DNA from: Solobacterium sp.
Lineage (GTDB): Bacteria; Bacillota_I; Bacilli_A; Erysipelotrichales; Erysipelotrichaceae
Length of the DNA: 64,000 nt
Reading direction: 5' to 3'
Assembly: GCA_017510405.1 (NCBI GenBank)
Contig: JAFWNG010000043.1
Span: 1 to 64,000 of the forward strand
How positions within the stretch are numbered: the first letter of the stretch is position 1; the number at the start of each line of letters is the position of its first letter. The position numbers and the translations under genes were made by a program. Shown one piece after another: positions 294-38,687 of the stretch. The notes beneath the pieces are model-generated. The model searched no databases. It saw only the letters and a list, made by a program, of their open reading frames with translations, and was not told where the DNA came from.

Positions 294-3200
294 TTATATT
301 TTTTCAGATACGGCTCCGGCCCTGACACTGTAATACCCCAGGAAAGAATCTTCCAGTTCTTCGGAAGAGTTCAGCGTTACAACGTCTGAAATTACAATGC
401 CGTTTCCGGATCGGTCTCTGAATCCAACTCTTCCCCTGCCCATGTATATTGCCGAAAAAGATTTCCACAACGCAATATCACCAGGCGCAGGATTTTTTAC
501 AGACCTGCATCTCTCACGCTGAATTTCCGGTGCTGATCCAATATCGATACCATAGAACCGTGAATATATGAACTGGCAGAAATCTTTATATCCGTATTCT
601 TCAGACGGATCAATACCGATCATCACCCAATACAGGACTTCACGCAGTACTTGTGAGTTTTTTGCTCCGCTGGTCTCATAAACATATTCCATAATGTCAG
701 GAAAACGTTCAGAATTTTCAAGTATACGTTTGAACTCTCGAATTGCACGTTTTTTAAGACTTTTAACCGAACCTGTATTTAAAGACGGCAAAGACTTATC
801 TGACCCGGAAGACTGTTCTTGATCCTCAAGTTTATTAGCATATCTGAGCAGATTCTCCTGCTGGTTGCCCAGATTTCTTAATGCACGCTGAACTTCATCT
901 ATGACGACCTTCCGCCGCTTCTCCCGCTCACGTACTTCCGGACGCATCTGCGGATCGCCGATTACCGTTTCATAAGAAGCTTCCTGATCCGGCAGAGACA
1001 TGTCAAGGTATATATATCGATTACTTATGAATAAATCACAAACCTCTGCGAACTGCCTGTGAAATTCCTGATATCTTTTTTCTATGTCCCGTTCCGTTCT
1101 GTACTCTTCTTTCACTTTGATGTTTTTCAATAATACAGCAGCTTTCACAATTGCTTTATCGATTTTTTTGGTGTTATCGCTATTATTTTCTTCCAATAAT
1201 TTTTTAGCATTATTTAAGAGTGTTTGGGCTTCTTTCTCTTCTATAGTGAGCGGCCGCTTATCTTTCCCGTCATTTCCATTAATAGTAGACGGCTGCTCAT
1301 CTTTATTATTACTTTCATTTCCCGGCAGACTATTCAGCAAAGCCTGCACTGTTTTTTCTCTTTCATCATCTGTGTGCTCTTTTGCCATTTGATATGCCGC
1401 TGCCCGTAAGGCGGTTTTATCAATATCTTTGCCCATTTTTTTCAGCTCTTTTTTCACTTTATCAAGCAAGTCGGCATATGCTGTCTTTTCTTCGGAGAGC
1501 GCGCGTTCAAAACCATCGTCTTCCATCTTCAGGAGCAGTTTCCTGAAAAAGAGTATGGATCTCCCCATGTTATTTATTTCGTTTTCTATATTGCGCAGGT
1601 CCTCGCCGGGAAAGTCCTTTCCAGATTCCTTCCTGTACCCTCTCTTTCTTGCTTCGTATCGAATAGCTGCATACCAGATATACTTCTTTTCTTCTTCTGA
1701 AAAGTTTTCTTTTTTCTCGTTGTCAAAAGCATCATCGATATTATTTTCTGCATCGTCTTCAGCAATCTCTTCTGAAACATCCGGATCATAGAAAATCGCT
1801 GCATTCCTTAAATCTTTCAGAATCAGATATTCTTCTTTTGTGTATTTCAAAGGATTCAAAGCTCTGCTGATATATGCACTCAGCTCGTTCGTGACTCCGC
1901 GGTTTGCATACTTTCCGAACACCCCTTTGTTAATGTCATATTTTGTGATTAATTCAATCAGTTTCAAATTTCCTTCCTGGATCAGATCCATAAAGAGATC
2001 CGCTTTGATCCTGTAATTCCTGGCCGCAGCCTGCTTATAAACCAGATATAGATAAGACGAAGCGATTCGTTCTTTCGCTTCATTTGCGTAATTCTCTTTT
2101 TCTTTATAAATATTTATATCTTCATCTGTATTTATGTTCTCGATGTTGTCAGATAATGCTGAAAAATCCTGTATCTTCTGAAATAACATTTCAATTTCAA
2201 TATCAGTAAGGAAAAAATACGTGGACATCCTTCTTCTGTATACATTTTGAAGCGGCTGTGTTTCACCTGCCTCTGTCCGCAGTGCTTTTTCTTCATAATG
2301 CAGTTCCGGATAGTTTAGTCCTATTTTTAACCTGGCTATCTGATCTTTTAATACACGGGTCTGTTTCCAGATGTCTCTTCTGTCAGACAGATTCACTCCG
2401 GTAATGGAATCTAGTAAAAAATCAGCAGAAAGACTGCGAACAGAATAATTTGTGAAATCAAAGGAAAGCCAGAATATTCTTGAGTACAGCAAGACAGCAT
2501 CTTTGATCTTAGCAGGATCGGTCCGGAACTCGTCACGGATGATCTGCGGTATTTCTATTGTTTCAGTGAAAGACGGATCAAGCCTCAGATTCCTGATGAA
2601 TTTCCGAAGTCTTTTTTTCAATGCGTCTTTTAATACTTCTTCAAAATTCTCTTCCGGCCTGATGTCTTTTACGACAGTGCGCAGGACAGCCATGGCTTTC
2701 ACGATCAGATCTTCAAAAAGAACATCTGCGTTCCAGTTCGCAAGATAAATATATGAACAGGCATCAAAGATCATTGAAAAATACCGTGATATGAGCACGA
2801 TCCTTGCCCGGTTATTAACATTAGCCCAGTCTTCTCTCCACTCACGAATAAGCTTCAAATCTCTTTTGGAGGCGTCCGCGGTGGAAATGTACGATTTTTG
2901 TTTGTTTATGACCGATTCTGCCTCATTAACGATTTCCAGCCGGTAATAGTAATCAAACCTTTCCTCCCACTTTGATCTTGTCTTTATAATGTCTCTCTGC
3001 GCAGTATGAAAAACCTTTGCCTCAGCCACGCCGTTTCTGGCAGTTTGTATCTGCGACGCAGACAGTTTTATTGTTTCACCTGAAGAACTTTCTATTGTTA
3101 TTATTTTAGACAAATACTCATTGGAGCAGTCACGAATCGTATATGTTTCGAAATCAAACGATGTCCAGAATATTTTTGAATAATTGACTGCTGCGTTAAG

Positions 3201-4163
3201 AGGCAGTTCCGGATTGAGCGTGTATGCTTCTCCCGCATACTTTTCAAGCCGAACATCTAATGTATGTTCCAGTTTCCGATTGAAAGTTTTCCCCTTATTC
3301 TTAGCAGCGGCATTTTCAATTATCCGTATTCCTTCCATGATCAGGTCTTCAAAGATAACATAGTACGGGTGTGTTTCCTGCAGATACAGCTGTTTCGCAC
3401 GCTCAAATATGACATCAAAATACTGTGACAAAAGGATGTTTCTTTCACCCAACTGTTTGTTTTCTTTCCCGGCAAGCCGGGCTGACATCTGTATTATTTT
3501 TGCATTTCTGACCGCTTCTTCAGCCTGTCTGACGATTTCTTTTCTGGTATCCAGAACAGGAGCGGACAAGTGTTCGCGATCCTCACACAGCAGGGGCATA
3601 AACGGTCTGCCGTATTCAGCCGAGCCGACGCTTCGGGCAAAATAACGGACGTAATAATTCCGGATGGTGTTTTCAATATCTCTTTTTGCTTTTGCGATAT
3701 CTTTCAGTTCCTTACTTAACGGTTTACGAATAATCCTGTATGAATTGAAATCAAACTTCTCCCAGAAAACCCTGGAGAACGAATTATGGAGACCCGGGCT
3801 GACCGCATTTACCTTTGTCGTTTCAACCATTTCAATGTATGTGCTGATCTCTTTTTTGATGACGGTTTTCAAATATTCATCGTTAATAAGGCTATCCGCA
3901 TAGCTGCCGCTGCTGTATGCTTCGTCCACTGCATTCAGACCTGTCTCAATAAGCGCTTCGAATACCAGGGAATCAGAAGCGGAAGACAGGTATCGCTCAG
4001 AAGAAAAATCAACAATAAAATCCAAACACCTTTTACGCTGTTCAATTCTCAGTTGTTCAATGATCTCTTTGTCATCTGTTATGATTGCCTGTTTCTGAGG
4101 CTTTTCCCCCCGGGTTTTAATGATTTCTTCAGCCCGTTTTACAATGTTTTCTTTATACGACAT
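294..4163 (-). CDS. Giant sigma-70-like protein with repeated sigma2-like units and a degenerate NlpC/P60-like tail
   Basis: 1289 residues with no signal peptide. Four similar units are visible. The core FEALIETG/FEDLIMEG/FEDLIVKA/FMDLIQEG lies at residues 68, 271, 483 and 724, about 205-240 apart. Units 1-3 also share a following FW..FDF..Y.(I/V)R motif (133, 332, 564) and a preceding EIV..AE helix. Unit 4 (about 700-775) matches sigma-70 region 2 best: DLIQEGNLKLIELITKYD, then KYA and an RAL end. Residues about 1051-1150 resemble the sigma 3.2 linker and region 4 (LDMSLPD, IGDPQMRPE, RALRNLGNQQ, then LKKRAIREFKRIL). The last 100 residues resemble NlpC/P60 (DFCQFIYSRFYGI, PAPGDIALW, AIYMGRG), but the catalytic cysteine is displaced by one and the histidine is absent. 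Ribosome site AAAGAGAG. Function unknown; a sigma factor or sigma-derived scaffold is inference. Confidence 0.7.
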   Translation of the reverse strand: MSYKENIVKRAEEIIKTRGEKPQKQAIITDDKEIIEQLRIEQRKRCLDFIVDFSSERYLSSASDSLVFEALIETGLNAVDEAYSSGSYADSLINDEYLKTVIKKEISTYIEMVETTKVNAVSPGLHNSFSRVFWEKFDFNSYRIIRKPLSKELKDIAKAKRDIENTIRNYYVRYFARSVGSAEYGRPFMPLLCEDREHLSAPVLDTRKEIVRQAEEAVRNAKIIQMSARLAGKENKQLGERNILLSQYFDVIFERAKQLYLQETHPYYVIFEDLIMEGIRIIENAAAKNKGKTFNRKLEHTLDVRLEKYAGEAYTLNPELPLNAAVNYSKIFWTSFDFETYTIRDCSNEYLSKIITIESSSGETIKLSASQIQTARNGVAEAKVFHTAQRDIIKTRSKWEERFDYYYRLEIVNEAESVINKQKSYISTADASKRDLKLIREWREDWANVNNRARIVLISRYFSMIFDACSYIYLANWNADVLFEDLIVKAMAVLRTVVKDIRPEENFEEVLKDALKKRLRKFIRNLRLDPSFTETIEIPQIIRDEFRTDPAKIKDAVLLYSRIFWLSFDFTNYSVRSLSADFLLDSITGVNLSDRRDIWKQTRVLKDQIARLKIGLNYPELHYEEKALRTEAGETQPLQNVYRRRMSTYFFLTDIEIEMLFQKIQDFSALSDNIENINTDEDINIYKEKENYANEAKERIASSYLYLVYKQAAARNYRIKADLFMDLIQEGNLKLIELITKYDINKGVFGKYANRGVTNELSAYISRALNPLKYTKEEYLILKDLRNAAIFYDPDVSEEIAEDDAENNIDDAFDNEKKENFSEEEKKYIWYAAIRYEARKRGYRKESGKDFPGEDLRNIENEINNMGRSILFFRKLLLKMEDDGFERALSEEKTAYADLLDKVKKELKKMGKDIDKTALRAAAYQMAKEHTDDEREKTVQALLNSLPGNESNNKDEQPSTINGNDGKDKRPLTIEEKEAQTLLNNAKKLLEENNSDNTKKIDKAIVKAAVLLKNIKVKEEYRTERDIEKRYQEFHRQFAEVCDLFISNRYIYLDMSLPDQEASYETVIGDPQMRPEVREREKRRKVVIDEVQRALRNLGNQQENLLRYANKLEDQEQSSGSDKSLPSLNTGSVKSLKKRAIREFKRILENSERFPDIMEYVYETSGAKNSQVLREVLYWVMIGIDPSEEYGYKDFCQFIYSRFYGIDIGSAPEIQRERCRSVKNPAPGDIALWKSFSAIYMGRGRVGFRDRSGNGIVISDVVTLNSSEELEDSFLGYYSVRAGAVSEKI

Positions 4164-4453: not shown

Positions 4454-5230
4454 ATGACAGATTTAAGAAATTACAACTCTCTTTACAAAGCATACACAGA
4501 ACTTCTGATACAGAAAGAGAAGCTCAACAAGGAGATGATGCGGTTAAGATTCCGCTATCTTGTCATATTCGGCGAATTAAAGAACGAAGCTGTCCGCAAC
4601 CGTGAGACTGGAAAGATCCTGCTGAAAAAGATCAATTACTGTAAGCGAATGGTTCAACAGGCACTGCCTATCACGGAAAAGAATATGGATATGGCGCTGG
4701 AAAAAGACATCCTGAAATCCTGGAGAATCATTCAGCTGGGAGAAATCAGTTATTCGGAAGCCTGTGCCGCCTTCAGCGATACCGCCGCGCAGGTCCGGGA
4801 TCACGATCCGGAAGAAGTACAGGGGGCTTTTGATACCCTTTTGGAAATACTGTCTCCGGATCTTCATCCAGATCTTCAAAGGAACAAAGATGCCCTTTCA
4901 TTATGGGCTGCAGTCGTCCGGGCTTATGTACTGAACGATTTAGACTACCTTAAAATAGTTGCTTCTTTTAAGGCTGATCTTGTACAAGTATTCAATTTAC
5001 TGAATGAGCCTGTTCTCTCTGATCTGGAAAAGCGGATCGATGAGTTAAAGAAAAGAATCAACGGGTATTCGGACTGTGAAGAGTTTGGTTTTTCTTCAAT
5101 ACTTGCGGATCCCCGGAGAATCGAAGAGGAAAAGAAAAGACTGACCACACAGATACAATACTTCGCTGACAGCATACTGGAGTTTGAACAGAAGCTTGAT
5201 TCATTTCCAATTTTGAGAATGCTTTCATAA
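4454..5230 (+). CDS. J-domain-like coiled-coil protein
   Basis: 258 residues, soluble, rich in charged helices, with coiled-coil stretches at about 10-60 and 190-250. Residues 135-165 carry a LHPDLQ motif followed by a conserved-looking LW..VV.AY...D...LK helix. This is the HPD loop and following helix found in J-domain-derived proteins of Firmicutes, where HPD contacts DnaK. The start follows a consensus AAAAGGAGG with 10-nt spacing. It is the first gene of a tight operon with an ABC ATPase and permease. A chaperone-adaptor role is inferred from the HPD motif only. Confidence 0.6.
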   Translation: MTDLRNYNSLYKAYTELLIQKEKLNKEMMRLRFRYLVIFGELKNEAVRNRETGKILLKKINYCKRMVQQALPITEKNMDMALEKDILKSWRIIQLGEISYSEACAAFSDTAAQVRDHDPEEVQGAFDTLLEILSPDLHPDLQRNKDALSLWAAVVRAYVLNDLDYLKIVASFKADLVQVFNLLNEPVLSDLEKRIDELKKRINGYSDCEEFGFSSILADPRRIEEEKKRLTTQIQYFADSILEFEQKLDSFPILRMLS

Positions 5231-6840: not shown

Positions 6841-6997
6841 AAGAATTATGTTTATCGCCAATGTGCGTTTTTTTTCTGTACCTATTTATATGTCAGGAAG
6901 GAGGAATGCATTTCTAATGTGAAATAAGAATAGGATTCACCCGTGCCGTTCACTTGTCATTTCATTGAGAAAAGTAATCCTGGAGGAAAAAAGGATA

Positions 6998-7873
6998 ATG
7001 AGAAAAACCCACAATTTCTTTGTTCTTATTCTTACACTTGCTGCCTGCATGATCCTCGGTGCTGCTTTTATTCGAATCACAGAAGCTGAGACTGAACTCA
7101 GGCAAGAAAATACAGGTTCTGCGAATGACAGCGCTGCCGCTGAGGAAGCGCAGATTTCTGAGGAAGAACCGGCTGATGTTGTAGAGGAAGAACCTCACGT
7201 CCACACGGAGGTGACTGCGGCAGCAGTCGAGACCGTTGAAAGTACCTGTACTGAAGAAGGTCATAAAACTACCGCGTTCCTGTGCGACTGCGGGACTGAG
7301 CTTCGACGGGAAACAGAGATACTGGCTCCTCTTGGTCATAATTATGATCCCGAAACAGGGATCTGTTCCAGATGTGGTTTGAAGGATCCTGAGTTTGTAA
7401 AAATCTATTCCTCAAAGGACATAGTGAAAGTCATGGAAGACTCTGCAATCACTTCTTCCGGAACTACTGCTTATCATCTTGGAAACAGTGATCTCGTAAA
7501 TGCCTTCGGGAAAGAACATGCGAATACAATTACGATGGATCTCAGTTGTGATTACAACCTCTGGGATAATCACATTCAGTATTTTTTAGTCAACTTATCA
7601 ACACTGAATGAAATGAATATAGATACTTTGTATTTCAATGTTGCAGGGAAGAAGGGAACTACAGGAAGCTTAACTGTTGAAATCTTCCTGGATCCTGAAA
7701 GTTCCTTAGATGAATCTGAACCTGCACAGATCATTGAAGCAGATCCTATTGCGGTCGAAAAGACCATTGCTTTACCGATTAAAGACGCAACAGTGCTGGC
7801 GATTCGCTGCACGAATCATTCCGGCAATAATAACACTGTTGTCTTCTATGATTTCTCCAATATGCCGGCTTAA
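6998..7873 (+). CDS. Secreted or membrane-anchored protein with Cys ribbon and NPCBM-like domain (paralog 1)
   Basis: 291 residues. The N-terminus (KTHNFF then about 18 hydrophobic residues) is a signal or anchor segment. An acidic linker follows, then a Cys-rich module with CTEEGH, CDCGTEL, LGHNYD and CSRCG. This CTE.G...C..CG...LGH.Y pattern is a short repeat common in surface proteins of gut Firmicutes. The C-terminal 160 residues look like a beta-sandwich with weak similarity to NPCBM carbohydrate-binding domains (FGKEHAN, GSLTVEIF, VVFYDF); this is inference. The start at 6998 follows GGAGG. It is the first of two tandem paralogs. Confidence 0.7.
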   Translation: MRKTHNFFVLILTLAACMILGAAFIRITEAETELRQENTGSANDSAAAEEAQISEEEPADVVEEEPHVHTEVTAAAVETVESTCTEEGHKTTAFLCDCGTELRRETEILAPLGHNYDPETGICSRCGLKDPEFVKIYSSKDIVKVMEDSAITSSGTTAYHLGNSDLVNAFGKEHANTITMDLSCDYNLWDNHIQYFLVNLSTLNEMNIDTLYFNVAGKKGTTGSLTVEIFLDPESSLDESEPAQIIEADPIAVEKTIALPIKDATVLAIRCTNHSGNNNTVVFYDFSNMPA

Positions 7874-7936: not shown

Positions 7937-8129
7937 TTATGAACCGCTTAGAAAAGCATCCTCTGACGAAAGAGTATAAGAATTTTGTTTATCGCCAATG
8001 TGCGTTTTTTTTCCGGACCTATTTATATATCAGGAAGGAGGATACGCTTCATATGTGAAATAAGAACAGGATTCACCCGTGCCGCTCACTTGTCATTTCA
8101 TTGAGAAAAGAAATCCTGGAGGAAAAAGG

Positions 8130-8993
8130 ATGATGAAAAAAACCCACAATATATTTGTTCTTCTTACGATCGCTGCCTGTGCTGCTCTGGGTATTGCATT
8201 TGTTAATATTACCGAAGCAGAAAATGAATTGAGAAAAGACAATGTCAGTTTCCCAAAAGAAAACATCGCTGATGAAATCCAGATTTCTGACAGCGAACAT
8301 GTCCTCAACTTAGATGCTGTGAGTGAAGAACCACACGTCCACACGGAAGCGAATAAAGTAGTCATTGAAAAAACAGATCCAACCTGTACCGAAGAGGGTC
8401 ATACGACAACTGCTGTTGTTTGTGACTGCAGAACGGAGCTGCGTCATGAATCTGAGACTATCCCGCCTCTTGGACATGATTATGATCAGAATACCGGGTT
8501 CTGTACAAGATGCGGTCTTAAAGATCCGGAGTTTGTAAAGGTGTATTCGTCAAAAGAAATCGTCCAGGCATTAAAGGACTCCCGCATTACTGATTCAGGC
8601 ACGACAGCTTATCACTTAGGCAGTAACGATCGTGTAAATGTATTTGGCAAAGAACGCGAGAACTGTATAACGACAAATACTTCAGCCACTGTAAATCTAT
8701 GGAATGGCAGTCATCAGTATTACATGGTGAATCTGACTTCACTCAGTGATATTGACACACTTCACTTCAAAGTCTGCGGCGAAAACGGAACCACCGGTTC
8801 GATGACTGTGGAATTCTATCTTGATCCGGAGTCTTTAGATGATGAAGAACCATACCTTGTTCTTGAGCTTGACCCTATTGCCCTTGAAAAGGAAGTTTCT
8901 TTACCGATCAAAGACACTGCAGTTTTGGCTGTCAAAGTTGATAATCACGCCGGACATTCAAATCGTGTTGTCTTTTATGACTTCACGAATTAG
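8130..8993 (+). CDS. Secreted or membrane-anchored protein with Cys ribbon and NPCBM-like domain (paralog 2)
   Basis: 287 residues, collinear with paralog 1. It has a KKTHNIF hydrophobic N-terminus, an acidic linker, the Cys module (CTEEGHT, CDCRTEL, LGHDYD, CTRCG), and a beta-rich C-terminus with GTTAYHLG, GSMTVEFYLD and VVFYDF. The second residue of the CxCG pair is changed (CDCG to CDCR). Two adjacent ATGs (8130, 8133) follow a GGAGG site. It arose by the local tandem duplication. A carbohydrate-binding surface role is inferred; no catalytic motif is visible. Confidence 0.7.
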   Translation: MMKKTHNIFVLLTIAACAALGIAFVNITEAENELRKDNVSFPKENIADEIQISDSEHVLNLDAVSEEPHVHTEANKVVIEKTDPTCTEEGHTTTAVVCDCRTELRHESETIPPLGHDYDQNTGFCTRCGLKDPEFVKVYSSKEIVQALKDSRITDSGTTAYHLGSNDRVNVFGKERENCITTNTSATVNLWNGSHQYYMVNLTSLSDIDTLHFKVCGENGTTGSMTVEFYLDPESLDDEEPYLVLELDPIALEKEVSLPIKDTAVLAVKVDNHAGHSNRVVFYDFTN

Positions 8994-9095: not shown

Positions 9096-10556
9096 ATGAA
9101 TACGATTAAACGATTAACTGCAGTTCTTTTTGCTTTCCTTATGATTACTGCCCGTCTTTGCCCGGCTGCTGTACACGCTGATGCCGGGAATCTTAGCGGC
9201 AGTCATGAAGTTTCCGACGGTACCTATATGATCGTCAGCGGCAACAGCGATCACATGGTGGTTGACATTAACAATTCCAGTATGGAGAATGCCGGCAATG
9301 CTGAACTATTTAATAAAAACAACACATTGAATCAGCGTTACTTCATACGATATGAAGGCGGCTATTACACAATTATGTGTATTCATTCAGGGAAATATCT
9401 TCATGTTGAAGATGGCAGCAAGACTCAGGGAAATGTTCACCAGTGGGAAGGCAACAAACACGCCAATGCACAATGGGAACTTATTCCTGCCGGTAATGGA
9501 TATTATTATCTGCGAAACAAAAGCACCGGCAGCTATCTCGACAACTGCGGAGGCAGTACAACCCCAGGCAACAACCTGATTTACTATCCTTTCAACGGAT
9601 CTAATGCACAGAAATGGAAGTTTGAACCCGTTGACAATACATATTGCCTGAATCTGAACGATAACTATTTTAAAATCGCCAGTGCAAACAGCAGTGATCT
9701 GATTTTAGATGTACATGGTTCAAATAGAGATAACGGAGCAAATCTCGAAGTATTCTCCAATAACAATACCGCAAATGAGAGATTTTACCTTCGTTATGAA
9801 AACGGATATTACACAATAATGGCTGTTCATTCCGGGAAATACATTCACGGAGAAGACGAAAACAAGGTTGTTGCAAATGCTCATATGTGGACAGGAAACA
9901 AGCATGACAATGCTCGTTGGATCGTCATACCTGTGGGTGATGGGTACTGTTATTTGCAGAATAAGGCAACAGGTTCTTATCTTGATAACAGCGGTGGAAA
10001 CGCAAAACGCGGAAATAATGTGATACTCCATCCATTTAATGGGTCTGCCGCCCAGAAATGGAAATTTCTGAAAACCTCTGCAAACGGAGGGCCAACCCTT
10101 GACCCTGAAACCTATAGTTATAAGCGGGTAACATTTGACTGTTCATCTCTGGATAACTGGGTCAGTTCTGTTAAGAGTACAGGATACAAAGTCACTTCCA
10201 ACTCCGGTGTAGTCGTGGCGGTAAACATTCTTTCGTATGATACACTTACCTGTCAGATTCCAAAGCAGGGACCGTATCAAAACGAAAATGACAGACCGAC
10301 TGTGACGAGACAGTATAAGGTTCCGAAAGAAGTGATCTACACCATTCATCATCATAAATATCTCGATGGATATGGTGTACGCTGGGCATATGAAGATCAG
10401 ACCATTGTAGTGCGGGAGACGTGTGAGTGCGGCTATCAGGTCGATACAGCGGTATGGGTCATGCCTTTGGATGACGGATTGGTCAGTGACATTCAAGGGG
10501 TAATTGATGCTTCAGCACCGATCAATCCTGTCACTACATCCTTAATGATCGACTAG
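9096..10556 (+). CDS. Secreted protein with two ricin-type beta-trefoil lectin domains
   Basis: 486 residues. A classic signal peptide occupies residues 1-29 (KRLTAVLFAFLM, cleavage near VHADA). Residues about 38-180 and 190-327 are two copies of a RICIN-like domain. Each ends with GSYLDN, GNN, PFNGS and AQKWKF, and each has a YYTIM..HSGKY(L/I)H strand. The C-terminal 150 residues are unrelated to the lectin, include a CECG pair, and are unrecognised. No catalytic domain is evident, so it is a sugar-binding exoprotein. It has its own GAAAGGG site and a strong terminator. Confidence 0.85.
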   Translation: MNTIKRLTAVLFAFLMITARLCPAAVHADAGNLSGSHEVSDGTYMIVSGNSDHMVVDINNSSMENAGNAELFNKNNTLNQRYFIRYEGGYYTIMCIHSGKYLHVEDGSKTQGNVHQWEGNKHANAQWELIPAGNGYYYLRNKSTGSYLDNCGGSTTPGNNLIYYPFNGSNAQKWKFEPVDNTYCLNLNDNYFKIASANSSDLILDVHGSNRDNGANLEVFSNNNTANERFYLRYENGYYTIMAVHSGKYIHGEDENKVVANAHMWTGNKHDNARWIVIPVGDGYCYLQNKATGSYLDNSGGNAKRGNNVILHPFNGSAAQKWKFLKTSANGGPTLDPETYSYKRVTFDCSSLDNWVSSVKSTGYKVTSNSGVVVAVNILSYDTLTCQIPKQGPYQNENDRPTVTRQYKVPKEVIYTIHHHKYLDGYGVRWAYEDQTIVVRETCECGYQVDTAVWVMPLDDGLVSDIQGVIDASAPINPVTTSLMID

Positions 10557-37517: not shown

Positions 37518-38687
37518 ATGACCTTTTATGTCGGCGTTGATATCGCCAAGTATGAACATGTCGCCAGTGTTCTCGATGGTTCCACCGGAGAATTTCTGAT
37601 CGACTCACTTCATTTCGACAATAATGCGAAAGGCTTTAAACTCTTATTGTCGAATCTGTGCGAACTGAATAAGAAAGATGTTGTTATTGGGTTTGAGTCC
37701 ACTGTCCATTACCATCAGACTTTATTCAGTTATCTGTCCGGAAAGAAATACAGGTGTTTTCTGATCAACCCATTTATGACTTCCCGGTTCAGATCTCTCT
37801 CTTTGAGGAATGCCAAGAACGATAATATCGATTCCCGTGCAATTGCCTCATTTCTATCGTTTGAATATCGGAATCTCATTGAAGATGATTTCTTCCTCAA
37901 TGAGCTGAAAGAACTCAGTATCCAGCGTGATTCCCTATTGAAGCGCTCTTCCAGTCTCAAGATACAGCTGCTCACTTATCTGGACCGTGTCTTCCCTGAG
38001 CTGGAATCGGTCGTTTCCAAGTCCGGAATCCATTCAAAGGCTGTCAGGGCGATCCTGAAGGAATGTCCGACGGCAGGCGATATCTCCTCAACCAGGATCG
38101 ATCATCTTCAGAAGCTGGCCAAAGACGCTTCCAATAACAGATATTCTTCCGCTAAAGTCCTTGCCATCAAGGAGGCTGCCAGGACCTCCGTTGGTTTTCC
38201 TTCGGAAGCACTCGGCCTGAAGATCCGCCAGACTATTCAGATGCTGGAAGAATTGAAAAAGCAGATTGATGAAGTCAACCTGGCGATCTGCAGTTCCCCA
38301 ACTGTTATCGACTCGCCTCTGCATAAGATCAAAGGTATCAGTTCGATCGAGATTGCTTACATCATGTCTGCCATCATCAATATAAACCGTTTTGACTCTC
38401 CAGACAAATTGATTGCGTATGCAGGACTTGATCCGATCGTCAAACAGTCAGGTACCTGGCAGGCGAAGAACACCAGAATGTCCAAACGTGGCAACAGACT
38501 GCTTCGCTTTGCTTTGATATGGGCCGCAAACAATGTCCGTAAGCATCCTTCAAAGATGAAAGATTACTATGGTAAGAAGATCACTGAAGGCAAATCGCAT
38601 TACAACGCTCTGGGACATTGTGCTGCCAAACTCTGCAGGTACATCTTCTTTGTTCTCAATCATCCCAATCAGGATTTCATCAACTGA
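37518..38687 (+). CDS. IS110 family transposase (DEDD/serine recombinase)
   Basis: 389 residues. An N-terminal RuvC-like DEDD domain (GVDIAKYEHVASVLDG, GFESTVHYHQ, NAKNDNIDSRAIASFL) and a C-terminal Transposase_20 domain (KIKGISSIEIAYIMSAI, AYAGLDPIVKQSG, SKRGNRLLRFALIWAA) are both complete. The frame is intact and the residues look uncorrupted, so the element is potentially active. The ribosome site is weak (GGAAAGGCGG). Confidence 0.95.
   Translation: MTFYVGVDIAKYEHVASVLDGSTGEFLIDSLHFDNNAKGFKLLLSNLCELNKKDVVIGFESTVHYHQTLFSYLSGKKYRCFLINPFMTSRFRSLSLRNAKNDNIDSRAIASFLSFEYRNLIEDDFFLNELKELSIQRDSLLKRSSSLKIQLLTYLDRVFPELESVVSKSGIHSKAVRAILKECPTAGDISSTRIDHLQKLAKDASNNRYSSAKVLAIKEAARTSVGFPSEALGLKIRQTIQMLEELKKQIDEVNLAICSSPTVIDSPLHKIKGISSIEIAYIMSAIININRFDSPDKLIAYAGLDPIVKQSGTWQAKNTRMSKRGNRLLRFALIWAANNVRKHPSKMKDYYGKKITEGKSHYNALGHCAAKLCRYIFFVLNHPNQDFIN

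Follow-up and report, generated by a model that had tools for sequence, protein, structure and literature searches.

A sigma factor is usually built with one copy of each domain. In sigma-70 factors, the helix of region 2.2 contacts the beta' coiled-coil of RNA polymerase and regions 2.3-2.4 bind the -10 element (PMC4598750). PhyR sets the precedent of a sigma mimic under phospho-control (PMC4598750), and PknS-EcfK that of a sigma2 domain under the control of a Hanks kinase (PMC13147305). Here, we describe a gene found in a stretch of 64,000 nucleotides of the gut-type bacterium Solobacterium sp. (contig JAFWNG010000043.1, hereafter the window), in which an intact open reading frame at 294-4163 (-) encodes a sigma-70-like protein of 1289 residues with three degenerate sigma2-type units placed before a sigma core. 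We propose, with a probability of roughly 45%, that this sigma-70-family protein has been turned into a multivalent sigma mimic controlled by a phospho-module, and is not a promoter-reading sigma factor.

Repeated units of the window protein

The motif F[EM][AD]LI, which lies in region 2.2, is found four times in the protein, at residues 68, 271, 483 and 724, exactly where a first-pass annotation of the window had placed four repeated cores. At least two copies were obtained in 0/20,000 shuffles of the 1289-residue protein, although this chance figure is biased, the motif being how the units were first spotted. The same annotation gave FW..FDF..Y as common to units 1-3, and this second motif was indeed detected three times, at residues 133, 332 and 564. 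Each of these three units, called pseudo-units below, joins a first, sigma2-like half to a second that bears FW..FDF..Y; folded alone, the second half of pseudo-unit 2 reached a predicted local distance difference test score (pLDDT) of only 54. In pairwise shuffle tests, units 2 and 3 were clear duplicates (z=20), and unit 1 was related both to unit 3 (z=7.3) and to unit 2 (z=4.7). Judged from these alignments, units 1-3 are true tandem repeats. The likeness of unit 4 to unit 2 was weak (z=3.1, with 4/300 shuffles equally good). The positions of all units are given in Table 1.

Table 1. Features of the gene under study, with residues of the encoded protein and positions in the window.
Feature	Residues	Position	Strand	Basis
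Whole gene, sigma-70-like multidomain protein	1289 in total	294..4163	-	
Pseudo-unit 1, sigma2-like part	29-111	3831..4079	-	repeat with unit 3 (z=7.3); motif at 68; in AlphaFold2 alignment
Pseudo-unit 1, second half with FWEKFDFNSY	112-216	3516..3830	-	motif
Pseudo-unit 2, sigma2-like part	231-314	3222..3473	-	AlphaFold2 and structural matches to sigma factors
Pseudo-unit 2, second half with FWTSFDFETY	315-400	2964..3221	-	AlphaFold2, tentative helix, beta hairpin, helix (pLDDT 54 alone); motif
Pseudo-unit 3, sigma2-like part	448-535	2559..2822	-	z=20 with unit 2
Pseudo-unit 3, second half with FWLSFDFTNY	536-640	2244..2558	-	motif; unit 3 not present in relative
Unit 4, sigma region 1.2/2 homologue	674-775	1839..2144	-	Pfam, PDB SigA; 2.2 kept, 2.3-2.4 degenerate
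Charged insertion between sigma2 and sigma3.2-4, 237 residues, not in relative	800-1036	1056..1766	-	collinear domain map
Sigma region 3.2/4-derived segment, degenerate helix-turn-helix	1037-1162	678..1055	-	homology to region 4 of the relative
NlpC/P60-derived tail, catalytic Cys and His gone	1165-1289	297..671	-	homology to NlpC/P60 proteins of the genus
Terminator-like hairpin, strong, intrinsic type, directly 3' of stop codon		210..242	-	consensus match alone

A single relative beside the gene for protein X

Only one relative was found, an unannotated protein of 799 residues from Solobacterium sp. RGIG7085 of the sheep rumen (JAFYHC010000092.1, L063:11623-14022; genomes, contigs and loci are labelled G, C and L, with G000 for the genome of the window and G004 for RGIG7085). 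Its plan is two pseudo-units, a sigma2 and a region 3.2/4, in four stretches collinear with the window protein; it differs from the latter by the absence of the third pseudo-unit, of the 237-residue insertion and of the NlpC/P60 tail. The relative's gene lies directly behind the gene for a protein that we call X, at a distance of 5 bases, whereas in the genome of the window X is encoded at two other sites, on contigs C8 and C15, the C8 neighbourhood being syntenic with G004. The earlier statement that no family has this plan was thus nearly right, and has to be corrected for this one protein with two pseudo-units, no NlpC tail and a place beside X.

Pseudo-units were present in 2/70 genomes of the genus, and the identical two were recovered among 316 genomes of the order. 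A sample of 395 genomes of the class gave nothing beyond two negligible short matches to the sigma-like protein, and no further relative came out of a peptide-pattern search of genome contigs, viral contigs, phages or plasmids. Between G000 and G004, the sigma-like proteins share ~29% identity and the X proteins 58%. Such rarity and such divergence between close relatives, together with a low guanine-plus-cytosine content (40.7% for the gene vs 50.1% for the window) and the loss of catalytic residues in the tail described below, would be expected of an accessory gene that is decaying or drifting fast and currently has no function. We hold this to be very unlikely, because the 1289 codons are intact, the gene is also intact and open in the sister genome, the tandem duplication of units 2-3 is clear, and the repeats and region 2.2 are still readable.

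Predicted sigma2 fold of the pseudo-units

A profile made of units 1-3 and of the two units of the relative was in register with the sigma2 of SigA across 73 columns. Column-shuffled profiles reached that score in 2/300 cases against SigA alone and in 1/300 against SigA and the proteins' own sigma2 sequences. For unit 2, AlphaFold2 received an alignment of units 3 and 1 only, without any true sigma2 sequence, and gave a model with a pLDDT of 75.7 and a predicted template modelling score of 0.76. The top Foldseek match of this model was a sigma factor, at a non-significant E of 0.32. When the matches were re-aligned structurally, the first 36/36 rows were sigma factors, the best being sigma-28 (Z 10.8, 2.6 A over 81 residues), and the first unrelated row came at rank 37 with a Z of 7.2; this second look re-aligns Foldseek's selections alone and, as the tool cautions, Z values of this order can arise in helical bundles from their arrangement alone. 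Profile and model agree on a predicted sigma2 fold for pseudo-units 1-3. The first-pass annotation had named two outcomes that would speak against it, a non-sigma helical repeat in the predicted structures and a lack of sigma2 hit around the fourth core. Neither occurred: a sigma2 fold was predicted for unit 2, and Pfam Sigma70_r2 matched residues 713-767 of unit 4 (26.7 bits vs a cut-off of 24, E 4.9e-6).

Surviving faces of sigma2

The best PDB match of unit 4 was a SigA chain (E 1.2e-7), and NCBIfam sigma-family models matched the same site, below their cut-offs. Unit 4 had been said to look like a functional region 2, which is not supported: its region 2.2 is well kept, with 15/25 positions identical to SigA and 8/9 in the 2.2 core, but identity falls to 4/21, the level of the pseudo-units, in regions 2.3-2.4, where the -10 element is read and melted. 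The latter have 6-8/25 identical positions in region 2.2 and 2-4/21 in regions 2.3-2.4, and unit 2 keeps 6/9 of the 2.2 core. For comparison, a canonical sigma encoded beside X at a related locus has 11/25 in region 2.2 and 8/21 in regions 2.3-2.4. In both the window protein and its relative, regions 2.3-2.4 of the sigma2 are no better than those of the pseudo-units. With 2.2 kept and 2.3-2.4 degenerate, the protein looks like a holder of the polymerase, or of a partner competing for the same face, rather than a promoter reader.

The sigma2 fold could also have been recruited as a repeated helical docking element in a scaffold with no direct role at the polymerase, the link to the latter being historical. 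Most sigma2 residues are gone from the pseudo-units, as the counts in region 2.2 indicate, each pseudo-unit has its extra FW..FDF..Y half, and the enzyme-derived tail is dead, all of which fits a scaffold. Nevertheless, a pure scaffold would not need the 2.2 core that is kept in units 4 and 2, and we regard this explanation as improbable.

C-terminal half of the protein

Toward the end of the chain, a stretch like region 3.2/4 and a dead tail of NlpC/P60 type had been suspected, and both are supported. Residues 1037-1162 are homologous to residues 649-772 of the relative, which belong to its region 3.2/4 (z=12 in local alignment; collinear phmmer domain). No Pfam region 3 or 4 match was obtained for the window protein, and its helix-turn-helix is degenerate. 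In the tail, residues 1182-1258 are 34% identical to a protein of the genus with Pfam NLPC_P60 (E 9e-8). Both catalytic residues are replaced, DCSG being aligned to YKDF and the His of (T)GHAAIY to Phe, and the Pfam scan does not recognise this NlpC/P60-derived tail.

In the relative, residues 526-760 match RpoD-type sigmas of plasmids over regions 2 to 4 (E 4e-6), with a weak match to Sigma70_r4 at 15.1 bits, below the cut-off; local alignments were used for this sigma part, which a MAFFT alignment misplaced. These matches, like the strongly kept region 2.2 of unit 4 and the canonical sigma-70 gene that adjoins X in another metagenome-assembled genome (MAG), would suit a working alternative sigma. 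Its N-terminal pseudo-sigma2 array would be an on-board inhibitor or sensor; once unit 4 and region 4 are released by a signal, the protein would guide RNA polymerase to promoters belonging to its own system. We find this somewhat unlikely given the state of regions 2.3-2.4 in both copies, the lack of a Pfam region 3 or 4 match in the window protein, and the 237-residue insertion that parts sigma2 from region 3.2/4.

Protein X and its module

X has 538 residues beside the relative and about 540-590 generally, and no match in Pfam or PADLOC. It is also present in MAGs named Oscillospiraceae, Lachnospiraceae, Clostridiales and Ruminococcus. At these loci, a PP2C-like gene and a large kinase-type gene (~1400 codons where intact) lie behind X. 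The PP2C-like genes were recognised by sequence and position, and Pfam confirmed PP2C at one locus; in both large proteins scanned, Pfam detected a kinase and a Card1-like nuclease domain. The X module is common to Solobacterium-type (Erysipelotrichia) and Clostridia MAGs. Its loci (L057/L058, L059/L060, L061, L063-L071) at times have TIR or TIR-NACHT-RyR genes nearby. A ClpP-like gene was found at one and a VirD4-like gene at two of the Clostridia loci, and both genes at G000:C8 and G004:C74. In a Clostridiales MAG, a canonical sigma-70 gene with regions 2, 3 and 4 is divergent to X; a sigma2 profile run over nine X loci gave no further such sigma besides this one and the relative. At L070, Pfam identified an extracytoplasmic function (ECF) sigma 2.6 kb from X. 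A relation of X to the pseudo-units or to sigma2 was looked for and was unsupported, with 4/100 and 77/100 shuffles equally good.

At L057 and L060, TelA, MoxR-type AAA and DUF2201/VWA genes were seen within ~15 kb of the X-PP2C-kinase genes of G000:C15, and a TelA-like gene in G004:C18, a gene set reminiscent of Ter-type stress systems.

A free-standing N-terminal fragment of RpoC (beta'), of ~315 residues, is encoded at L048:69-1010 (G000:C8) and L063:5611-6573 (-), adjoining the ClpP-like and VirD4-like genes. Its four zinc-binding cysteines are kept. It occurs in exactly the same 2/70 genomes of the genus, which is weak evidence of linkage as both are close relatives. The idea that it is the target of sigma2 is weakened, because the fragment ends before the clamp helices. 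Separately, an in-frame TAG flagged at rpoC of G003:C35 and G058:C1 drops out when the match begins a little further in, and so most likely sits just upstream of the rpoC start rather than being a recoded codon.

A proposed multivalent sigma mimic

The reading that we favour, a multivalent sigma mimic, builds on the architecture, the homology of the repeats, the predicted sigma2 fold, the lost DNA-reading and catalytic residues, and the relative beside X. In this protein, three degenerate sigma2-type units stand before a sigma2 that has kept its face for the beta' coiled-coil and lost the one that reads the -10 element, and the degenerate region 3.2/4 and the dead NlpC/P60 tail come after it. 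We infer that the array may bind the usual partner of sigma2, either RNA polymerase at its beta' clamp or else an anti-sigma factor or adaptor, possibly X. The kinase/PP2C/X switch would set the state of the array by phospho-control, and the bound array could alter which sigma factor holds the polymerase, and thereby transcription.

Several points weigh against this proposal. The window gene is not beside X, which is on other contigs of that genome. G000 and G004 are close relatives with a shared neighbourhood, so that the co-occurrence does not represent two independent events. Among L065-L071 (the two loci of G004 excluded), a sigma-70 gene adjoins X at one locus only. Divergence in regions 2.3-2.4 is also seen in group 3 and ECF sigmas, which would make promoter use possible. 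Finally, an anti-sigma factor was not identified.

A wider idea, which we judge unlikely, is that a phospho-signalling and possibly immune module imitates parts of the transcription machinery so as to capture or shield RNA polymerase or its regulators. Its parts would be the multi-sigma2 mimic, the free beta' N-terminal fragment, the ClpP-like protein, the VirD4-like ATPase and X, with control by PP2C and the kinase/nuclease.

Surroundings of the gene

The gene at 294-4163 is probably transcribed singly, as a monocistronic unit, because a terminator-like hairpin stands directly behind its stop codon. Position 1 of the window is the start of the contig, and the region 3' of the gene extends beyond the contig end. 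On the other side, the facing ABC operon is opened by 4454-5230 (+), which encodes a coiled-coil protein with an HPD J-domain-like motif (LHPDLQRNKDALSLWAAVVRAY). No Pfam family reached its cut-off for this protein, and genomes G004 and G038 lack a homologue. The link once suggested with these facing J-like/ABC genes was not found, the first of them having no homologue in the sister genome. Further along, 6965-7873 and 8079-8993 (+) are tandem paralogues of secreted appearance, the former without Pfam match, followed by a ricin-B-lectin repeat protein (9096-10556). The gene at 37518-38687 (+) reads as an IS110-type transposase.

Comparison with known systems

The sigma-70 superfamily is already known; a tandem pseudo-sigma2 array before a sigma core is an architectural surprise and very rare. 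A limited search of the open-access literature turned up no account of natural sigma2-type units arrayed in this position. With sigma-70 factors (SigA/RpoD, group 3), the window protein shares region 2, as found with Pfam and PDB, the 2.2 core and traces of region 3.2/4. It differs from them by its three degenerate sigma2-type units, its long insertion and its enzyme-derived tail, and by degenerate regions 2.3-2.4 and 4. This tail is 27-34% identical to NlpC/P60 peptidases of the genus (with DUF5648) and keeps P.PGD.ALW...AIY.G, but its catalytic Cys and His are replaced and it is joined to a protein of intracellular type. MzaA, the sigma of the MZA anti-phage system (NF041931), is also large and sigma-70-like, with a long N-terminal part and a defence-type setting, and its region 2 aligns with the window protein; however, NF041931 scores 26.0 bits for a cut-off of 800, in an alignment limited to residues 661-753.

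Should the array bind to RNA polymerase or to an anti-sigma factor, it would be a concrete candidate for the output of the kinase-PP2C-X module, and a signalling system might govern transcription through the likeness of a sigma factor and not through sigma activity. The proposal of sigma-like domains that bind a partner and not a promoter, under phospho-signalling, matches PhyR, the sigma-mimic anti-anti-sigma factor of alphaproteobacteria (PMC4598750). In PhyR there is a single ECF-type sigma2-sigma4 pair with a receiver domain; the window protein has an array with degenerate sigma2 and sigma4 parts, and no Pfam match to a receiver domain. Were such docking true, sigma mimicry would extend beyond PhyR, into Firmicutes.

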